Shown one piece after another: positions 6,384 to 26,973 of a DNA stretch of 41,821 nucleotides. Under the pieces are notes generated by a model. It saw only the letters and a program-made list of their open reading frames with translations, was not told the origin of the DNA and did not search any database. Position numbers and translations under genes: made by a program. The DNA comes from an uncultured Opitutia bacterium (lineage in GTDB: Bacteria > Verrucomicrobiota > Verrucomicrobiia > Opitutales > Opitutaceae): positions 1-41,821 of the forward strand of contig CAIOTK010000506.1 in NCBI GenBank assembly GCA_903861185.1, read 5' to 3'. The stretch's first letter is position 1. Each line of letters starts with the position of its first letter.

Positions 6384-9300
6384 TCACGGTCCGAGCAGGA
6401 ACGCCAGCAGGTCGTGGAAATCGCGGTCCGCGAGCGCGGTCTCGAAGACCGCCGGCATCGCCGAAGCCGCCGACGGCTCGAGCCGCGCGATCTCCCCGCT
6501 CGCGATCCGGAAATCCCGCCCCGTCACCGGGTCCGCCAAGGTCACGCCCCCTGCGTCCCGCCGAGGATTGAAGCCAGAACGGACCTCCCCGTCGCGCAGC
6601 GTCACGGAGGCCATCCGGAACAGCGGATCCACGTTCCGGCCGGGGTCCAGGATGTCCTCCACCACCCGCCCCAGCCCGCGCGCTGTCAGCCCGTCTAGGC
6701 TGGGTCCGACGCTCCCGCCGGCATCGCCGCGCCGGTGGCAGGCCGCGCAGTGGGCCGCGAAGACCTCTGCGCCGCGCCGCGGGTCCCGCTTGGCCTCGCC
6801 GTGGGCCCCGACCAGGGCGGCGATCACGGCATCGAGCCGCGCATCTTCGCCCGGCAGGTCCCGGGTCAGCTCCGCGACCCGCGCCCGGACGCCCGCGGAA
6901 CGACGCTCGAGGGAGGGCGCCAACCGGCTGTGGCGCAGCAAACTCGCGGGCGCCCTGCCGTCTCCCACCAAGGCCACCAGCGCGGCAGCGCCTTCCTCGG
7001 ACTGCGCTAACCCTCCGGCCAAGATGATCGCGAGATCAGTGCCAGCGGCCGACAGTGACGCGGCTAGGGCGCTCCGGGCAGTGGCCCCCGCCGGGATCTT
7101 CGCCAACCGCTCTGCTGCCGCCCGTCGTACCGGGAGTCCGGCGCCCGTGGTCAGGATCCGCGCGAGCGCCGCCTCCCCCTCCGCATCCAGATCAAAGGCC
7201 TCCAGCGCCGCCTGACGCAGCGCGGCCGGCGACTTGGAATCCAACGCGCGCGCCCGCAGCGGAGCGTTCTTGGCGGGCAAAGGCAGGGGCTTGAGGGTTT
7301 GCGCCGCCCGCCTGGAAACGGCCGGATCCTCCGCGGCCAGGGCGCCGAGCAACGTGCGCTCGAGCCAGCCTGAAACCGCGGCCGGCCAACTGGCGAGTTC
7401 CTGGCCGGCCGCAGCCGCCAATCCCTCGGCCAGCGCCAAACGCTGTTCCAGCGGCGTGCCGTCAAGCCTGCGGATGAGGGCCTCCACCGCGGTGGCGTTG
7501 CCCGGCCCCAGCTGCCGCACCGCGTGCCGCGCGAACTCCCCCGCCCGCGGCCCGGTCACGCCAAATCGTTCAAGATGGGCGATGAGGAATTCCGCCGCTG
7601 CCGGAGTCGCGACCGCGACCGCCACGTCGGCCAACCGGACGGCATCCTCCGGGCGAGCCGCCAACTCCTGCAGCTGCTCCCGGGTAGCAACGGCCACGTG
7701 CTCCTTAAGCGCCAACCGGAGCGCGTAAACCAGCAGCGCATCCGTCTCTGGCGCACGCGCGAGCATCGAGAGGAGCAGCGGCGCCTGCCACGGCTGGGGG
7801 TGTCGCGCGAACACCTCAGCCGCCGCTCGCCACACGTGCCCGGCATTCACCCGGGCGAGAAGGGTGCGGAACGGTTCGACTGCCGCCGGCCCCGGGGGCC
7901 CGCGGAGCAGCATCGCGCGGAGGCTCGCGAGCGCGGCCTCGTCATCCGCCGCGCGCGACGCCTCAAGCGCAGCCAAAAGCCCCGCCTCGTCGACCGTCCC
8001 CAACCGCTCCCGGAGAAATGCCACGGGCAGCGCAGCCCCCGGCGGCAGGGGAACGGTGAGCGCCGCGAGGGCGGCCTGCGCCTCTCCCGGCGCCACGCGA
8101 CCCGCCAACTCACCCGCCGCCAGTGTCCGCACGGCGAGATTCGGATCCCGAAGCGCCGCGACCAGCGCGGACGCAGCGGCCTGCGCAAGGTCGGGCAACG
8201 CCGGCGGCGGAACCGTGGCGTCCTCGCCCCGCCAGTACACGCGCCAGATCCGTCCGTGGGTTCGATTCCGCGCGGGATGCGTAAGCGGCACCTCGTAGTG
8301 GCCGATGATCGGATTATAGAAGTCCGCGATCCAGAGCGCTCCGTCCGGGCCCAACACGACTTGTACCGGCCGGAAGGCGGGATCGTCGCAGGAGAGGAAG
8401 TCCGCCTGCCGGACCGCCTTAGGCGTCGACCCCGTCCAATCCAAGCGGGCGCGATTCAGGCGGCGCGTGACGGGATTCCCGTTAAACACGTTGCCCCGGT
8501 ACTCCTCCGGAAACTGCGCGGCGGCGTACACGGCGATCCCCGCGATCGCGCTCGAGCCGTGGCTGTCGAGCGTGATGGGCGGGGCGAAGCCGAGGCCATC
8601 GTGCTGGCGGTTGATCCCCTCGTAAAACCCTCCGCGGAGGAGTAGGTAAACCGGCTTGGAGTGGGAGTCCGCGGTGTAGACGTCGCCGCGAGCGTCGAAG
8701 GCGAGGCCGAACGGGTTGGTCTGGCCGTGGGCCCACGGCTCGAGGCGCGACCCATCCGCCCGGAAGCGGAACGTGTTGCCGCTCTCGAGCTTGGTCACGC
8801 GGCCGGAGCGGTCCCGGATCTCGCTGCGGTTCGCGAAGCCGTGCGTGGCATAGATCCAGCCGTCGGGCCAGGGAGTGAAGCTGGACGCCATCCCGTGGGT
8901 GTCTTTGAAGCCAAAGCCGTCGTAGAGCAGCTCTCGGCGATCGGCCCGACCGTCACCATCGGTGTCCTCGAATCGCCAAATGCCAGGAATCGAGTGCGCA
9001 ATGACCGCGGCTCCGCGCGCCCCGGGCGACCGCGGTAGGGGTGTCACGCCCACTGGGATGTTTAGGCCGTCGGCGAATACCTCCGTACGTCGCGCGCGCC
9101 CGGTATTCGGATCAAAGTCGGAGAGTACAAGCAGTTGGTCGCGCGCCTGGGTTGCGGGCTCGGGAGGCCGGACCAAGCCACGAAACGCCAGCTGGTTATC
9201 GTCCCAGTCGCGCGCAAAGTCCGCAATCGGCTGGCCGCGGGCGTCCGTCCGCGCCGGCCAAGGGTAATGCGAGGTGGTGGTCACCCACAGGCGACCGGCG

Positions 9301-19226: not shown

Positions 19227-20123
19227 TCAGTGTCCGCCCTGCAGGAACGCTTGGATCCGCGGGACGAGCTCCTCGCGCGCGTCTTCCAGCACGTAATGGC
19301 CGGCGTCCGCGAGCCGGTTCACGGCGGCCCGCGGGAAGAGCTCCCGCCAACGCGCCAAGAAGGTGTCGTCGAAGCAGAAATCCTTCCCACCCCAGTTAAT
19401 CTCCATCGGATGATCGCGCAGCCGTGCGAGGCCCGCCTCCACCGCGACCAGCGCCGCCCAGCTCGGGTGCGAAGGAGCCAGCGGGATATCGCGGACAAAC
19501 CCGTGCACCGCGGCGCGATCGGCCCAAGTCTGGTAGGGCCACAGATAGCCGCGGCCCACCTCTCGCGACAACGGCCGACGATGCACCGCCATCCATGTAG
19601 CCGGCCACGCGAACCCATTGGCTCCGCGAACCAGCAGCGCACCCAACCCCGGCACGCGGCACAGGGCGATCCGCGCGGGTATCCGTCGCGAACGGAACGC
19701 GGCGGTGTTGAGTACCACTATTCGCCCCACCCTTGCCGGATTCCGTCCGGCCCAACCCATCCCGATCGCCCCACCCCAGTCGTGCACGACCAGATGCACC
19801 CGACGCAGGCCCAGCGCGTCCACGAGACCCGCTAAGTCCTCGATCCGCCGCGCCAGCGGCCGCGGACCGCCCGGGGTGAGATCCGAAAGGCCCATCCCCA
19901 GGTGGTCGGGCACAATGCAGCGCAGTCCGGGCGCCAGAGCCCGCACGAGGTGCCGGTAGTAATAGGACCACGTCGGGTTGCCGTGGACCATCAGCACCGC
20001 CTCGTCCCCGCGCGGGCCTTCATCGAGGTAACTCAGCGCGTGGCCGTCGGCCGTGCGGTGGCGGCGCGGGGTGAACGGGTATTCGGCCCGCAGCCAGTCG
20101 GGAAGCGCGGCCGGGCTCACCAT
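19227..20123 (-). CDS. oleB: OleB-type alpha/beta hydrolase (beta-lactone decarboxylase)
   Basis: A 298-residue alpha/beta hydrolase of the haloalkane-dehalogenase superfamily. The oxyanion element HGNPTWS (47-53), nucleophile Asp115 in VVHDWGG and catalytic His276 in DAGHYVLEDA are present. Beyond these shared motifs it carries the extended OleB pattern: VLNTAAF, VRGANGFA, LWPYQTW, FVRDIPL and NWGGKDFCFDD. OleB decarboxylates the cis-beta-lactone made by OleC to give a cis-olefin, the last step of head-to-head hydrocarbon synthesis. Its ATG overlaps the end of oleA by 7 bp, so it is translationally coupled to it and is the last gene of the eight-gene operon. No OleC or OleD follows; the next gene is convergent. 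A true dehalogenase is less likely given the neighbour. Confidence 0.9.
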   Translation of the reverse strand: MVSPAALPDWLRAEYPFTPRRHRTADGHALSYLDEGPRGDEAVLMVHGNPTWSYYYRHLVRALAPGLRCIVPDHLGMGLSDLTPGGPRPLARRIEDLAGLVDALGLRRVHLVVHDWGGAIGMGWAGRNPARVGRIVVLNTAAFRSRRIPARIALCRVPGLGALLVRGANGFAWPATWMAVHRRPLSREVGRGYLWPYQTWADRAAVHGFVRDIPLAPSHPSWAALVAVEAGLARLRDHPMEINWGGKDFCFDDTFLARWRELFPRAAVNRLADAGHYVLEDAREELVPRIQAFLQGGH

Positions 20124-21142
20124 TCGAGCGCGAGCATCAGGCAGTTGAGGCCGCTCCCGATGCCGAGGAGGGCAACGCGATCCCCGTCGCGCACGGCGCC
20201 GGCTTCGACCGCCGCCGCGAGCGTGGCGGGCAGTGCGGCAGAGCCGGTGTTACCTAGGGTCTCGAACGTGGAGAAGTCGCGGGCGAGGTCGAGGCCGAGG
20301 GCCTCGTAGAGGCGGCGGCGATGGACCGAGCCGACCTGATGGCAGATGATGCGATCGAACGCGCCCCCCTGGGCGGCCGAAAACTCGCGCCACGTCTCGC
20401 GGGCCAGTTCGACGCCGGCCACCAGCAATTCCTCGGAGTCGGTCTGCATCGCCAGCGCCTCGCGACCGTGGTGATCACCCTGGCAGAGCGCGTTGTGATG
20501 CGTGGCGGCCCGGGCCACGCCGCCAAGCAGGCGGTGCGGCCGGCCGGTGACGAGAGAACGGTGGCAAACGACGGCAGCCACGGCGGCCGACCCGATCGTG
20601 AGGTTGGCGAAGTACGGCTTGATCTCCTGGCGCGAGAGCCCGGGGGCGTTGAGCGTCCGCAGCGTTTCCTCCACCAGCGGCCGGCCATTCTCACCCGCGG
20701 CGACCAGCGCGCAACGAATCTGGCCCGACTGGATCATCGCGGCCGCGACGGTCAACGCGTTGAGAAAGCCGAGGCAAGCGTTTGACAGGTCGAAGATCTG
20801 CGCCGAGTCGGGCAAACCGATGAGGCGATGGGCGAAGGCAGCCGTGGCAGGCTCCAGCATATCCCGGCTGACGGCAGCGTGGATAAAAAGTTCGACCTGG
20901 GCCGGGACGAGACCCGAGCGCGCGAGGGCCGCGCGGCCCGCAGCGGCGCTGGCGGCGGAAGCGCGGGTGCCAGGGGGCCACATCCGACGCGAGCGGATGC
21001 CCGTCATCAGTTCCAATCGGCCGGCGGGGAGGCGCAGTCGGGTGTAAAGTGGCTCCAGCCGCCGCTCGATCTCCGCAGAGGTCAGCTCCTCATCCGGCAG
21101 CGCAGTCGCCAGCGACTCCAGACAGACATCCGTGAAATTCAT
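20117..21142 (-). CDS. oleA: OleA-type thiolase (acyl-CoA/acyl-ACP head-to-head condensing enzyme)
   Basis: A 341-residue thiolase-superfamily protein. OleA condenses two activated fatty acids by non-decarboxylative Claisen condensation to a long beta-keto acid. The catalytic set is complete: Cys123 (SNACLGFLNA), His268 (CHQVGSVH), Asn298 (LGNTGSAALP), and, distinguishing OleA from FabH, Glu97 in SRDMLEPATA. The spacing Glu-Cys (26) and His-Asn (30) equals that of Xanthomonas OleA (117/143 and 285/315). The family-specific ending LLGIGSGLNC is present. The ATG at 21142 (MNFTDVCLESL) is 8 bp after the fabI stop; a frame extension to 21199 overlaps fabI and is rejected. Because it sits behind an ACP and type II fatty-acid enzymes, its acyl donors may be made by this same operon. 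Confidence 0.93.
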   Translation of the reverse strand: MNFTDVCLESLATALPDEELTSAEIERRLEPLYTRLRLPAGRLELMTGIRSRRMWPPGTRASAASAAAGRAALARSGLVPAQVELFIHAAVSRDMLEPATAAFAHRLIGLPDSAQIFDLSNACLGFLNALTVAAAMIQSGQIRCALVAAGENGRPLVEETLRTLNAPGLSRQEIKPYFANLTIGSAAVAAVVCHRSLVTGRPHRLLGGVARAATHHNALCQGDHHGREALAMQTDSEELLVAGVELARETWREFSAAQGGAFDRIICHQVGSVHRRRLYEALGLDLARDFSTFETLGNTGSAALPATLAAAVEAGAVRDGDRVALLGIGSGLNCLMLALEW

Positions 21143-21150
21143 TCCGGGAC

Positions 21151-21957
21151 TCACGGGCGCATCGCCAAACGGACCACGTCCTGATCGAACGTATTGCACG
21201 CTAAGCCGGCGTCGACGACCACGGTCGTGCCGTTAAGCCCGCTGCTGCGGGGGCTGAGCAGGAACGCGGCCACGTCGGCCACCTCCTGCGTCGCGACGCT
21301 CCGTTTCCGGAACGTCAGTTTTTCCGCGTAAAGGTAGCTTTCCAGGTAGCCGGGGATTCCCGCGGAGGAGCTTGTGCGGAGGGGGCCCGCCCCGACGACA
21401 TTGAAACGAACCGCGGAGTCGGCACTGAAGGACTTAGCAAGGAAACGCGCGCAGGACTCCAGCGCGGCCTTGATCGGGCCCATATAACCGTAGTTGGCAG
21501 GCGTGACCTGCAGCGACGAAATGCCGATCGTGACCACCGAGGCGTCGGACGCGAGGAGCGGCTTGAGCGCACGCGACAGCTCGACCAGCGAGAACGCGGA
21601 GATGGTGGTCGCCTGCAGGAAGTCGGCCCGGCTCGTCTCATGGAACGGCTTAAATCCCTCGCGGTAGTTGGCGAAGGCGATCGAGTGGACCACGCCGTGC
21701 AGCGGGCCGACGCCGGCAGCTTGCAACTCCACCGCGAGACGGGCGGCCGCGCCGTCCTCCTCCACGTCGCAAACGAAAGCCGTCCGGTCACCGAGGAGCG
21801 CTGCCAGCGACTGCCGGCGCGCGGCGGAGCGTACGCTATACACGACCCGCGCTCCCTGCTCCTCGAGGGTGCGCGCGATATGCCACGCGACGCTGCGCCG
21901 GTTGGCGATGCCGGTGACCAGCACCGTGCGGCCGGCCAGCTGCAGAAAATCGCTCAT
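21151..21957 (-). CDS. fabI: Enoyl-ACP reductase-like SDR (FabI type, variant active site)
   Basis: A 268-residue short-chain dehydrogenase of the FabI branch, expected to reduce enoyl-ACP with NAD(P)H. The FabI-type cofactor motif TGIANRRSVAW (15-25) replaces the GxxxGxG of other SDRs. Tyr156 and Lys163 (NYGYMGPIK) align exactly with E. coli FabI Tyr156/Lys163, and AGPLRTSSSAGIPGY matches the substrate-loop region. Position 146, normally the second conserved Tyr of FabI, is Ile here (TIGISSLQ). That makes it a divergent member whose substrate or reaction may differ. Start and stop overlap neighbours: ATGA with fabZ upstream, and only 8 bp to oleA downstream. It is part of the ketosynthase-ACP-FAD-FAD-fabZ-fabI-oleA-oleB operon. 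Confidence 0.85.
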   Translation of the reverse strand: MSDFLQLAGRTVLVTGIANRRSVAWHIARTLEEQGARVVYSVRSAARRQSLAALLGDRTAFVCDVEEDGAAARLAVELQAAGVGPLHGVVHSIAFANYREGFKPFHETSRADFLQATTISAFSLVELSRALKPLLASDASVVTIGISSLQVTPANYGYMGPIKAALESCARFLAKSFSADSAVRFNVVGAGPLRTSSSAGIPGYLESYLYAEKLTFRKRSVATQEVADVAAFLLSPRSSGLNGTTVVVDAGLACNTFDQDVVRLAMRP

Positions 21958-22406
21958 GAGGCGGGGGCGCTCGCTGGGGCCTTCCAGGCGACGGCGAATT
22001 CGAGCGAAAGGATGCGCACGCCGTCTTCACGCCGGATCGATCCCGCGAGCATCGTGAAACCGCCGAGGGCATCCTTCTCCTTTACCTCCAGCAGAACCCG
22101 GTCCCCCGGGTATACCGGATGGCGAAATCGCACCTCGGAAATCTTCGCGATGAGCGGCAGCCCCTCGCCGGGGGCCGCGCCGGCCTCTCGCGCCTTAAGG
22201 GCCATATAGCAGGCGGCCGCCTGGAACACGGCCTCGCACAGCAGCACCCCGGGGGTGATGGGCGCGCCCGGATAGTGCCCCTTGTAGAAATCCTCCTCCG
22301 CCCGCCACGTCCGGCGAGCCACTAGGGTGCCGGGCCCCCGGCTGACGATCTCGTCGACAAACAGGAACGGGGGCCGGTGCGGGATCAGGTCGGTGACGGC
22401 GGTCAT
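21954..22406 (-). CDS. fabZ: 3-hydroxyacyl-ACP dehydratase (FabZ type)
   Basis: A 150-residue hot-dog-fold dehydratase. It would convert 3-hydroxyacyl-ACP to trans-2-enoyl-ACP. The opening [14 protein letters not shown] is the FabZ hallmark. Catalytic His44 ([15 protein letters not shown]) and Glu58 ([10 protein letters not shown]) are 14 residues apart, as in characterised FabZ. Length is normal (about 145-155). The start overlaps the stop of the second FAD oxidoreductase as ATGA (22403-22406), and its own stop overlaps the fabI start as ATGA (21954-21957), so all three are translationally coupled. No ketoreductase (FabG) is present in the operon, so one from central metabolism would be needed to supply its substrate. 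Confidence 0.93.
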
Positions 22407-23848
22407 AACGCGGCGGCACGCTTTTCCGCGTGGAGAGCCTTGTCGATCCTGTTCGCCACAATGACCCCGTAGTTGATCGTGCCGAGCCAGCCGGACATAA
22501 TAATTCCGACGGAACCGGCGTGGAAGAGGCCCGGCAGCTGGTCTGGCAGGTCCATCGAGACCTTCAGCCCCTCAAATTTGGTGCCGAACGAGGTGCCCGC
22601 CCAGTGGGTCGTATAGCGTTCGATGGTCCGCGGCGTGGCCGCCTCACGCCAGTCGATCTTCGCCCGGACGTCGGGGATGTAGCGCTCGAGCGCAGTGATC
22701 GACTCCTCAATAAGGCGCTCCTTGGCGCGGGCATACTCCGGATCGGGGAGACCCTGCCAGTCCTCGTGGCGGGCGTTGAGGGAAACCACAATCGCGTAGC
22801 GGTCGGCCCCGGGGCGGGTGTCCGGGTAGTAGACCGAGAAAGTGCGACTGGTGGTATCGAAAGCGGTCAGCTCGCCGCTGCTGAAGCGGGGCGCGGCCGA
22901 GGTGAACACGAGGTCGCCGATGTGTGGAATGGATTCTCCGCGGCGGATGCCGAGGTAAACCTGGCATGAGCTGGAGTTGACCCGCACCGCGCGGGCGGCC
23001 GCAAGGTAGTCGGGGGCGAGGTGCTCCTCGCCGGCGAGGCGGAACAGGGTCGTCTTGAGGTTGGCGTTGGAAAGGATGGCCTTCGCGCGGATCACCCGTC
23101 CGCCTCGGGCGACGATGCCGGCCGCGACTTTCCTCCCGTCGCGCTCCTCGACCAAGATGCGTTCCACGAGCACCTTCTTGCGCAGCTCGACCCCGTTGCG
23201 GCGGAGCTCGTCCACCATCTTCGCGATCAGCTGGTCGGAACCACCCCGGAAAGTATAGACTCCGGAGCCCATGAAGTTCGAGAAGACGATCCCGTAGGTG
23301 ATCGCAGGGTCCTCGGTAGTCGAGCCATTGGCGTAGGCAATGGGCTCCATCAGCAGCCGCTGCACATCATCCCGCCCGGGGAAGAAGCGGTTAAACATCT
23401 CCCCGGTGGTCTCGCGATGATCGTCGTAGAAGTTCATCCCCCGCAGGTGCTCGTAGAAGGCCTCAACCTGCGCCCGCGGGACCCCGAAAGACTCGACCAG
23501 CACGCGCGTATAATCGTCGCGCGTGAAAGTCGTGCGGACGTCCATCTGGGGATTAACGAAGCGGATGTCCCGCAAGGGCACGATCGCCTCAGCGATCTCC
23601 CGGGACCAATATTTACGGCAACTCTTAATCATCCCGCTGGGGAAACCGTGCAGGGAGATGTCGAAAATGTGACCGCCGCGGCGAGTGAACCAAGTAGCTA
23701 AGCCGCCGAACTGGTAGTGGTGCTCCAGCAGCAGCACGCGGTGGCCGGCCTTCGCAAGGACGTTCGCCCCGGTGAGGCCGCCCAAGCCGCTGCCGATCAC
23801 GATCACGTCGTATTCGTCCGCCACCCCCTTGAGCCAATCGTAAGCCAT
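22403..23848 (-). CDS. FAD-dependent oxidoreductase, phytoene desaturase/RetSat-like (second copy)
   Basis: A 481-residue flavoprotein of the CrtI/retinol-saturase-like amine oxidase superfamily. The N-terminal Rossmann motif [21 protein letters not shown] is followed by the acidic ribose-binding Glu ([11 protein letters not shown]). The C-terminal FAD motif reads [23 protein letters not shown]. CrtI-like enzymes insert, reduce or isomerise double bonds in polyenes; here the ACP, FabZ and FabI neighbours make a fatty-acyl chain a more likely substrate than a carotenoid. The ATG at 23848 ([15 protein letters not shown]) is used; an upstream extension to 24247 overlaps the previous gene. Its stop overlaps fabZ (ATGA). 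It is only distantly similar to the first copy, so the two probably do different steps. Confidence 0.85.
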
Positions 23849-23913
23849 GGATGGGGGAGAGCGTGGGTGGTCCGCGACGGGTTGCCAATCCCGCGCTGGG
23901 GAATTCGCGCAGG

Positions 23914-25344
23914 TCAGCCGCGCTGCAGGATATGGTGGTTGGCCATCGAGATGCCGCTCAGCATCGCGCCGACAATTCCGAGAAAGCCCTGATCCGTACC
24001 GCAGAGGTACACGTTGGGGGCGGCGGTAAGGCCCCGGCGATGCTTCATCCCCGAACCGTAGACCGCGCCCCGCTGGTGCCCGGTGAAGCGCGTGATGGTC
24101 CGCGGGGTGAACATATCGGTCGCCACGGTCACCGCCGCGAGCTCCGCATCCGACACCGGGGGCAGGAACCGCCGCGCGCTCGCCTGCACCACGCCAAACC
24201 ACTCCTGCTTCCGGGCACGGTACTCCGACTCCGGCCACGCCATCCAATCCTCGGGCCGCGCCAGAGAGGTCACGCGGAACCAGCCCTCGGCCAGCGCCTC
24301 GCCCGGTTCGTAAGCAAAGTTGTTCGGAAGGCAGATCACACCGCTGCGGACGTCCACCGGCGCCGACGGGCAGGCGTAATCGAAGCTCCGGCCTTCGTTG
24401 AAAAACACGATGGTGTCCCCGGACCAGCCCAGCGCAGCGGGGGGGCGGTCAAGGACGCAGATCGTCTCAACAAACGAGAGCCGCCCAGGCTCCGTCGGCC
24501 GGGGCGTCGGCAGCCCTCCAGCGGACAGCAGGGACTCGGTTTCCGGGGCACCGATTGAGGACAGGACGTGGTCCGCGGTAATCACCGCCCCGTCGTCGAG
24601 CTCGACCCCGGCAGCACGCCCCTCCCGGAGCACGATGCGGCGTACGCCACACTTCATCCGGCGTTCACCGCCGGCCTCCCGGTACTTCGCCAGCAGCACC
24701 CGCAGAATGCGACGCACGCCTTCGGCAGGGCGGGCGAAACCCTCGAGGAAGAGGGCTTTGAAGAGGATCACGAACTGGCTGAAGTCCATATCCCGCTCGG
24801 TCGGACTGCCGTAGAACATCACCGGGCAGAACAGCATATCCTCCAGCAGCGGATCCGTCAGGTGGCGACGAACCACCTCCCGGGCGGAGGTGGGGGCCGC
24901 GTCGAGGGAAACTTCGTCGTGGGCTCGGACCGCGGCGACAAGGGCGCGGAAGCCATCGATCTGCGCCGGGAAGGCACGGGCGACCTCGGCCTCGAGCACC
25001 TGGAAATCATTGGTGAAGCGCAGGTCCGCCGCCCCTGGGCCGAACGCAATACGCGAGCCGAGCTGCCCCCGCAGCGCGAACTCTTCGCGGTCGATGCGGA
25101 GCTGGCGGAGGAGCTTGGTAAGCGGCGTCCCCTTGACGCCTGGCGGCACGTAGTTGGTGAGCGCGTGGAGCCCGACGTCGTAGCGTCGCCCCTCTCGGCT
25201 ATAGAAACCGTTGAGCCCACCGACGGCGTTATGCCGCTCAAAGATACAGACCTGACGGCCGAAGTGGGCTAGGCGAATCCCGGCGGCGAGGCCCGCCATC
25301 CCCGCTCCGATGATGACCACGTCGTAGTGGGAGCGGGAGTTCAT
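23914..25344 (-). CDS. FAD-dependent oxidoreductase, phytoene desaturase-like (first copy)
   Basis: A 476-residue flavoprotein with N-terminal dinucleotide-binding motif [21 protein letters not shown] and the following ribose-binding Glu ([15 protein letters not shown]). The CrtI-like C-terminus reads [20 protein letters not shown]. The middle (about residues 120-330) is the variable substrate domain. The family catalyses desaturation, saturation or isomerisation of conjugated chains; no exact role can be assigned. The ATG at 25344 ([10 protein letters not shown]) is used; the frame runs to 25512, but that part overlaps the ACP gene. An intrinsic terminator-like hairpin ends only 15 bp before this start, so its expression may be lower than that of ketosynthase and ACP. 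The second FAD gene follows after 65 bp. Confidence 0.85.
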
Positions 25345-25359
25345 CAATGGATGGGCAGC

Positions 25360-25383
25360 AAAAAGCCGGGCCCACGGCCCGGC
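25360..25383 (-). terminator. Internal intrinsic terminator/attenuator between ACP and FAD oxidoreductase
   Basis: Read on the minus strand, a perfect 8-bp stem GCCGGGCC/GGCCCGGC with loop GTG is followed at once by TTTTTGC. It begins about 25 nt after the ACP stop and ends 15 nt before the next start codon. This is a standard rho-independent terminator shape placed inside an operon. Partial read-through would set more ketosynthase and ACP than downstream enzymes (inference). Confidence 0.75.
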
Positions 25384-25408: not shown

Positions 25409-25672
25409 TCAACCCTTGGCGGGCAACGCGTTGAACTTGGGCGTGAGGTACTCCGCGCAACTGTCGAGCGAGGCCAGCTGCAGGTAGTCCGCCTCCGGGA
25501 CCTCAATCCCATGGCGCTTGCGCAACTCCATAACGATATCGAGGAAGTCCATGCTATCGAGCTGGAGCTGGTCGCGAAGCCGGACCTCGGACTTGACGTT
25601 GGTCAAGTCCTCGTCGGGGGCGATGTCGGCGATGATGTCGAGCACCACCTTCTTGCAGTCGTCTTTGGTCAT
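25409..25672 (-). CDS. Acyl carrier protein
   Basis: An 87-residue acidic four-helix carrier protein. The phosphopantetheine attachment site is LDSMDFLDIV with Ser40; the usual DSL is DSM here. The flanking pattern (ADIAPDEDL... LRDQLQLDSMDF... FGI-like HGIEVPEADYLQLASL) is that of type II fatty acid/polyketide carriers. It is 18 bp after the ketosynthase stop, the classic FabF-ACP pairing, and ahead of the FAD enzymes. It is likely a dedicated carrier for this pathway rather than the housekeeping AcpP, which normally sits beside fabG/fabF. It would need a 4'-phosphopantetheinyl transferase encoded elsewhere. Expression may exceed that of the downstream genes because of the terminator that follows. 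Confidence 0.92.
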   Translation of the reverse strand: MTKDDCKKVVLDIIADIAPDEDLTNVKSEVRLRDQLQLDSMDFLDIVMELRKRHGIEVPEADYLQLASLDSCAEYLTPKFNALPAKG

Positions 25673-25690: not shown

Positions 25691-26929
25691 TTAGGGGACA
25701 AAGCGGCGAACAATCAATGTGGAATTTATCCCCAGCATACCGAACGAGTTGTTTAGGATCGTATCGACGTGCGCCACCTTCCGGGGCTGGTTGAGCACCA
25801 GGCCGGGGATCGCGCATTGGGGATCCAAGTCGTCCACGTTGATGGTGGGGTGGACCGTGAGGTCGTCGAAGCTGGGTAGGTTGCCAGCCAGTTCGAGCGC
25901 GCCGGCGGCCCCCATCGTGTGCCCAATGAAGCTCTTGGTGTTGTTGATGTGGGTGTCGGGGCAACCTTCGCCAAAGACGGCGCGGATCGCCTCGCACTCC
26001 TGGATGTCACCCAACGGGGTGGCGGTGGCGTGGGTGTTGACGAGGTGGATGCCGGCGGGAGCGAGGCCGGCGCGCGTCAGGGCGGCACGGACGCACTCGG
26101 CCTGACGCTGGGGGTTCGGCAGCACGTAATCGCTGGCGTCGCTATTCACGTGATAGCCGGCGATTTCCCCGTAGATTCGGGCGCCGCGGGCGCGGGCATC
26201 CTCGAGGCGCTCCAAGGTATAGAGGCAGCCCCCCTCGGAAATCACGATACCATTACGGGCCTTGTCGAAGGGCCGCGAGGCGCGCGCAGGCTCAGCGTGG
26301 GTGGCGAGGGCGTTCTGCGACTTAAAGCCCGCGAAGATACCGAAGGTATGGATGCTCTCGCTCACCCCGCCGCAGAGCGCGAAGTCCACTTCCCCCAAGC
26401 GGAGCATCTGGGTGGCGTGGATCAGTCCCATATTCCCCGCAGCGCAGGCAGCGCCAATCGTGTAGGCGGGGCCGGTGGTGCCAAGGTTCAGCGAGGTCTC
26501 CCCGGCGGGGTTGTTCGCGACCGTCCGGGGGTTATGGTAGTGGGACCAAAACTTGGTGTCGTAGTTGAACTTGGAGATGTTGTAGACCTCGTTCTCCGTC
26601 TCGACGTTACCGTGCTCGGTGCAGCCGATGTAGATCCCTACGCGATCCTTCCGCAAAGCGTCTAGGCTGACGCCGGCATCGGCAAGTGCCTCCCGGGCAC
26701 AGTAGATCGAGATGCTGCCGGCCCGGGTTCCCACCCGCAGCTCCTTCTTCTTCTGGTACCGCAGGGCGTCGTAGTGACAGACCCCGGCTAGCTGGCTGCC
26801 CATATAGCGGACGTCGATCCGCTCGATCCCGGCAACGCCGGTCAACAGATGCCGACGGAATTCAGGCAGCGAATTGCCGTTCGGGGCGGTCAGACCGACG
26901 CCGGTGATGACGATGCGGGAGAGCTGCAT
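25691..26929 (-). CDS. fabF: 3-oxoacyl-ACP synthase (FabF/KAS II type)
   Basis: A 412-residue beta-ketoacyl synthase that elongates acyl-ACP with malonyl-ACP. The Cys-His-His triad is intact: Cys162 in GAACAAGNMGL, His in VNTHATATPLGD and His in NTKSFIGHTMGAAGALE. The start (ATG at 26929, MQLSRIVITGVGLTAPNG) matches family usage; a longer frame to 27109 has an unrelated arginine-rich head. Sequence around the gate and loops (for example KARNGIVISEGGCLYTLE) differs from housekeeping FabF, which suggests a specialised ketosynthase with its own ACP. It is the first gene of the eight-gene operon and lies opposite a small membrane protein gene across a 268-bp divergent region containing an inverted repeat. 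Confidence 0.92.
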   Translation of the reverse strand: MQLSRIVITGVGLTAPNGNSLPEFRRHLLTGVAGIERIDVRYMGSQLAGVCHYDALRYQKKKELRVGTRAGSISIYCAREALADAGVSLDALRKDRVGIYIGCTEHGNVETENEVYNISKFNYDTKFWSHYHNPRTVANNPAGETSLNLGTTGPAYTIGAACAAGNMGLIHATQMLRLGEVDFALCGGVSESIHTFGIFAGFKSQNALATHAEPARASRPFDKARNGIVISEGGCLYTLERLEDARARGARIYGEIAGYHVNSDASDYVLPNPQRQAECVRAALTRAGLAPAGIHLVNTHATATPLGDIQECEAIRAVFGEGCPDTHINNTKSFIGHTMGAAGALELAGNLPSFDDLTVHPTINVDDLDPQCAIPGLVLNQPRKVAHVDTILNNSFGMLGINSTLIVRRFVP

Positions 26930-26945: not shown

Positions 26946-26973
26946 GCGGTACCCAAGCGGCGGGCGAACGCAA
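26946..26973 (-). promoter_or_regulatory. Candidate promoter of the fatty-acyl/ole operon
   Basis: On the minus strand TTGCGT (26973-26968) and TACCGC (26951-26946) are 16 bp apart, just upstream of the ketosynthase start. The -10 box is a poor match and the leader would be only about 10 nt. The TACC-type -10 resembles the boxes proposed for the two tRNA genes. Confidence 0.25.

Follow-up and report, generated by a model that had tools for sequence, protein, structure and literature searches.

Gene content of the locus

The stretch of DNA analysed here, referred to as the window, is 41,821 nucleotides long and comes from an uncultured Opitutia bacterium of the Opitutaceae. Its minus strand carries a cluster of eight genes, listed with the basis of each assignment:

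25691..26929, minus strand: ketosynthase KS, FabF-like (Pfam PF00109/PF02801)
25409..25672, minus strand: acyl carrier protein ACP (Pfam PF00550)
23914..25344, minus strand: FAD1, flavin amine-oxidase or phytoene-desaturase-like (Pfam PF01593)
22403..23848, minus strand: FAD2, second flavin amine-oxidase or desaturase-like (domain search)
21954..22406, minus strand: FabZ/FabA-like dehydratase (Pfam PF07977)
21151..21957, minus strand: FabI-like enoyl reductase of the SDR type (domain searches)
20117..21142, minus strand: ketoacyl synthase III, OleA-like (NCBIfam PRK09258, above cut-off)
19227..20123, minus strand: alpha/beta hydrolase, haloalkane-dehalogenase-like (domain searches)

We take PRK09258 to represent the OleA group and the hydrolase at 19227..20123 to be OleB-like; neither OleC nor OleD was seen beside the cluster (26929-19227). 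As a whole, the cluster resembles ladderane-candidate and polyunsaturated-hydrocarbon clusters. The ladderane-candidate FASII clusters of anammox bacteria, as described in the portions of PMC2649909 and PMC4790861 available to us, likewise keep FabF, ACP, FabZ and phytoene-desaturase-like genes together; unlike them, the eight genes here include no SAM radical gene, and OleA- and OleB-like genes follow. The term "terminator" does not occur in the available portion of PMC2649909, on the anammox clusters.

Matches to FAD1 were found in 53 of the 57 genomes searched, and KS, ACP and FAD1 lay collinear on the same strand in 41 of 46 loci examined. For several genomes (G002, G028, G091 and G096 among them), the best matching piece of FAD1 reached only to about residue 275-285, and for G002 and G028 a second matching piece was listed, which gives the possible look of an insertion near residue 275-285. 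Between FAD1 and FAD2, one relative (L037) carries a sugar-isomerase-like gene (7484-8350, PF01261), so the two modules are separable, and in another (L039) FAD1 lies 2.2 kb from FAD2.

A terminator-like hairpin between ACP and FAD1

The gap between ACP and FAD1 holds three features:

25365..25383, minus strand: terminator hairpin, 8 G/C pairs, loop GTG (fold and family comparison)
25360..25364, minus strand: T tract of the terminator, five T (sequence and T conservation)
25345..25359, minus strand: 15-nt stretch from the T tract to the FAD1 start, too small for a promoter

On the minus strand, positions 25383-25360 read GCCGGGCC-GTG-GGCCCGGC-TTTTT, which is exactly the 8-bp GC-only stem, 3-nt loop and five Ts that an earlier sequence-only reading had described. 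A ninth pair (G-T) is possible, and the predicted stability of the hairpin is -18.6 kcal/mol. The element lies outside coding sequence, about 24 nt (24-25) from the ACP stop, with the ACP end at 25409. The FAD1 ATG at 25344 follows the T run by 15 nt, as the same reading had it; this start is well fixed, as the N-terminus of FAD1 aligns in relatives, and in the fold of the window sequence the start codon stays outside the hairpin pairing. Read on the plus strand, the same site has an A run before the stem and no T run after it. The stable, GC-rich, short-loop stem, the T tract on the same strand, the position behind a stop codon and the strand specificity of the class are all features of an intrinsic terminator. 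As in other intrinsic (Rho-independent) terminators, the GC-rich stem with its 3-nt loop is followed directly by the T tract some 24 nt past a stop codon on the sense strand; unlike the usual case, the hairpin sits inside a conserved gene trio and against the next start codon.

Taken alone, the window does not single the element out. A generic scan of 10 kb was unremarkable (4 terminator-like sites versus 6.2 expected), and the fold of an 81-nt stretch gave a z of -1.1, ordinary for GC-rich DNA. A search of Rfam returned no family at threshold, the best match scoring 19.1 bits against a cut-off of 46.6; a known RNA family was therefore rejected, the one sub-threshold match (SorX, E 0.076) being taken as chance. 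In the window's own genome (a 4.02-Mb assembly) the exact element occurs once, even when up to 3 mismatches are allowed, and hence is no dispersed repeat.

Conservation of the element across relatives

We searched ACP-FAD1 gaps of at least 15 nt with a fixed rule (one hairpin at least as stable as -11 kcal/mol, followed by a T-rich tail) and drew expectations from 100 dinucleotide shuffles per gap. In the first genome set, from which L068 and L070 were dropped for overlapping gaps, a terminator was found in 26 of 39 gaps versus 4.01 expected. For the held-out set we added 40 genomes from the family, each from a different genus, and 34 of them had a usable gap; the six loci dropped had no ACP upstream, and one of these six lay at a contig end. 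In these genomes, which were new but included genera already represented in the first set (g2, g3, g4, g7 and g10), the terminator was present in 26 of 34 gaps versus 3.27 expected, and 23 hairpins lay within 45 nt of the ACP stop versus 1.87 expected.

Among the five closest species, no difference occurs in the stem arms and the T tail (22/22 positions invariant). By comparison, the 24 nt before the stem are 59% pairwise identical with 6/24 positions invariant, and the third codon positions of FAD1 are 68% pairwise identical. The loop sequence differs, being GTG in the window and GCA in the remaining four species. Across 44 distinct hairpins, the stem pairs vary by swaps among G-C, C-G and A-T. 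It is this comparison, the enrichment in gaps together with the invariant stem and T tail, and not a fold of a single sequence, that places the hairpin above chance, and we rejected chance as its explanation.

The other junctions of the cluster were searched at a laxer -8 kcal/mol. No terminator was found at KS-ACP (0/41), FAD2-FabZ (0/14), FabZ-FabI (0/14), FabI-OleA (0/14) or OleA-OleB (0/12), nor between FAD1 and FAD2 in the five closest species, where this gap measures 65 nt (0/5). Among all FAD1-FAD2 gaps, 4 of 18 had one, in one gap of 232 nt and three of 925-1103 nt.

We also counted how often such elements occur between genes in general. Within 400 kb of a genome from the same genus, 233 same-strand gaps held 25 rule-passing sites in sense and 3 in antisense orientation, a count that excluded gaps longer than 400 nt (8 of 241 same-strand gaps). 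This bias toward the sense strand indicates that such elements mark gene ends in the lineage. Among gaps of 60-99 nt, sense sites were present in 6 of 33 in the same-genus genome and in 2 of 10 in the sampled part of the window's own genome, the window site being one of the two; antisense sites were absent from both. A short same-strand gap carrying such an element is therefore uncommon in this lineage.

Supply of FAD1 downstream of the element

We consider it probable, from these comparisons and those below, that the element is a leaky intrinsic terminator that keeps KS-ACP above FAD1, with FAD1 supplied by read-through. The chief rival holds that an ordinary, near-complete terminator ends a KS-ACP unit and that FAD1 is a separate unit with a promoter that we failed to recognise. 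Across 47 loci, the hairpin keeps a nearly fixed distance to the ACP stop (median 24 nt, IQR 22-27), whereas the spacing between T run and FAD1 start is variable (median 44 nt, IQR 16-117, range 1-330). The hairpin is thus an element of the ACP 3' end rather than of a FAD1 leader, which would show the opposite pattern. The observed spacing fits a separate FAD1 unit, as do the inverted repeats and the up to 330 nt of sequence by which many relatives separate FAD1 from the terminator, and the separability of FAD1 and FAD2.

Promoter-like elements were found at two other places on the minus strand:

26946..26973, minus strand: promoter-like element upstream of KS, TTGCGT-N16-TACCGC (family form TTGC..-N16-TAGCGA)
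23860..23888, minus strand: promoter-like element upstream of FAD2, TTGGCA-N17-CACGCT (conservation of the FAD1-FAD2 gap)

The KS element of the window is a weaker variant of the family form. That form, TTGC..-N16-TA(GCGA), was found 43-55 nt before the aligned KS start in 22 of 24 family loci (chance 0.015 per locus); the two loci without it, L051 and L059, are counted in the 24 and also in the 63 FAD1 gaps described below. In held-out genomes it was present in 16 of 20 versus 0.66 expected. In four genomes (G008, G011, G017 and G030) the full form, with 0-1 mismatch, occurs once per genome, at KS, and elsewhere in them matches with 2 mismatches are as frequent as those of a reversed control. 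This suggests a dedicated sigma factor or regulator. The FAD2 element, TTGGCA-N16-18-CAC, was found 38-40 nt before the FAD2 start in 9 of 18 loci, including L039. It lies in a conserved block of the FAD1-FAD2 gap (23860-23910, minus strand), which in some species also contains an AATCCC/GGGATT inverted repeat. The TTGGCA-N17-CACGCT sequence likely serves the genes from FAD2 to OleB as promoter or operator.

Neither type exceeds chance before FAD1. In 63 FAD1 gaps, the KS type was found once, the FAD2 type not at all and a loose sigma-70 form once, versus 0.93, 0.07 and 1.33 expected, which speaks against a separate unit. The KS element is single-copy in the genomes searched for it and no general promoter motif, so its absence at FAD1 leaves room for promoters of other types. 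A sigma-70 consensus scan found no minus-strand promoter anywhere in the region, and hence this method is too insensitive here.

Another argument against a separate FAD1 unit comes from compact gaps. In 13 loci, the window included, that fall on several branches of the tree, the T run and the ATG are 7-19 nt apart; five loci whose start codons are uncertain (L059, L113, L131, L142 and L150) were excluded from this count. Such a stretch is too short for a transcription start site of the ordinary sort, and RNA polymerase would therefore have to pass the terminator to make FAD1 mRNA, at least in these loci. The -10 box of sigma-70 promoters needs an A, and in the four closest relatives the stretch from T run to ATG is without any A. 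Judged from the sequences, FAD1 in the window and in several other lineages begins too soon after the terminator for an ordinary promoter to fit in between. The order KS-ACP-FAD1, kept in most loci as described above, also argues against separate units. On the other side, a stem of -18.6 kcal/mol followed by five T might let hardly any transcription pass, and about half of the loci with a terminator have room (median 44 nt, up to 330) in which a promoter of an unrecognised type could lie. Weighing these points, we regard a separately transcribed FAD1 as unlikely.

The sequence-only reading had treated the cluster as one operon. That frame needs correcting for the genes from FAD2 to OleB, which have a conserved promoter-like element of their own. 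As these would start separately, the terminator would mainly set FAD1 against KS-ACP.

Other roles for the hairpin

A terminator in the path of FAD1 transcription could also be regulated, as an attenuator whose setting, and with it the transcription of FAD1, depends on an alternative upstream structure, a protein or an RNA signal. Condition-dependent read-through is known inside E. coli operons, as reported in the available part of PMC6131387. The 24 nt before the stem, where such a structure would be sought, are poorly conserved in the five closest species, the Rfam search found no family at threshold, and the element keeps its distance to the ACP stop and not to FAD1, which is the reverse of an attenuator or riboswitch leader. 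Regulated attenuation, which the sequence-only reading had offered as a second role, is thus improbable.

A hairpin at the 3' end of an mRNA also blocks exonucleases, and the element could be a stabiliser or processing stem of the KS-ACP message and no terminator. When no T tail is demanded, some stem lies within 45 nt of the ACP stop in 55 of 60 family gaps, as a stabiliser would have it. However, at least four T occur among the eight nucleotides after the stem in 44 of these 55 gaps and before the stem in 8 of 55, with a mean of 5.29 T in 8 nt after the hairpin and 2.05 before. A T tail that is conserved with the stem, stands on one side only and does not vary among the five closest species points to termination rather than to simple protection of the RNA's end, and we give the stabiliser very little credence.

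Masking of the FAD1 translation start, suggested by the 15 nt to the start codon in the window, has a negligible chance of being right, because that distance ranges over 1-330 nt in the 47 loci, the start codon lies outside the hairpin, and a Shine-Dalgarno signal is not above shuffles in the lineage (23/293 versus 26; 5/104 versus 7). The distance pattern, the unconserved upstream flank and the lack of a Shine-Dalgarno signal together disfavour both attenuation and start masking.

Distribution of the element on the tree

We mapped the terminator on a tree built from KS, ACP and the first 100 residues of FAD1. Within the family clade, 45 of 64 loci have it. The remaining 19 are without a terminator within 50 nt of the ACP stop, and their gap is short in some (L123, L141) and long in others (L039, L047, L048, L132, L133). 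The element is thus patchy in the family, and many relatives manage without it. Among 11 order-level loci outside the family clade, nine have no terminator and six have a gap of 19-40 nt; the only two with a terminator (L064 and L065) show a form unlike that of the family. Over the whole tree the terminator label requires 19 changes versus 22.8 in shuffles, with 21 of 500 shuffles as low, and is therefore weakly clustered. A trait that comes and goes in this way is favoured and not indispensable.

Many long ACP-FAD1 gaps hold inverted repeats that seemingly arrived behind the terminator. In L034, L035, L036 and L038 these repeats are long, of several types, and placed around the terminator and before FAD1, as if the gap were a landing site for small repeat elements.

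Discussion

The family comparison indicates that the hairpin and its T tail are selected, strand-specific and tied to the ACP stop. In the leaky-terminator reading, transcription would start at the conserved promoter-like element upstream of KS and, for most RNA polymerases, end at the T tract, yielding a KS-ACP mRNA. The remaining polymerases would continue into FAD1, for which no promoter was recognised, and the FAD2-FabZ-FabI-OleA-OleB block would start from the separate element in the FAD1-FAD2 gap. The outcome would be more ketosynthase and carrier protein than FAD1. The cap after ketosynthase and ACP that was first proposed from the letters of the window is supported by the conservation, the strand bias, the T tail and the fixed distance to the ACP stop, and a high ACP level would be its consequence. 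We infer termination in the cell, its leakiness and the benefit of the protein ratio from sequence comparison.

The mechanism is of a known kind, that of leaky internal terminators. In the rpsU-dnaG-rpoD operon of E. coli, a leaky internal terminator stands just before a gene needed in lower amount. The arrangement here likewise places a terminator before the next gene; the rpsU-dnaG-rpoD genes are unrelated, and the upstream product here is an acyl carrier protein. As a rule, it is RNA sequencing of a single model strain that brings internal terminators to light.

According to the part of PMC6131387 available to us, read-through is common in E. coli even where a terminator looks strong; it is at least 5% at 75% of terminator sites and has no correlation with hairpin energy. 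Internal terminators of Methanococcus (ioTTS) lower the genes behind them, as stated in the available part of PMC10450193. Both the E. coli operon variants (PMC6131387) and the Methanococcus ioTTS (PMC10450193) are, in these portions, same-strand internal terminators that lower downstream relative to upstream genes, as proposed here. Those cases were measured on RNA, whereas the present one is deduced from sequence and conserved over a family at one junction. Our literature search found nothing on a terminator at this junction, nor on termination in the Opitutaceae.

The locus offers a probable internal terminator that is visible by comparative genomics alone, across about thirty genera and at one junction, with the other junctions of the cluster as the control. 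It also provides a testable case of a carrier-protein surplus set by termination. More tentatively, the arrangement may be a family-wide dosage device of an uncharacterised lipid pathway, in which a dedicated, single-copy promoter element for KS-ACP is combined with a selected leaky terminator that sets FAD1, possibly in a condition-dependent manner. In the leaky-terminator reading, the cluster also splits into three expression modules, KS-ACP, FAD1 and FAD2 to OleB, a division that may be useful for expressing the lipid pathway.
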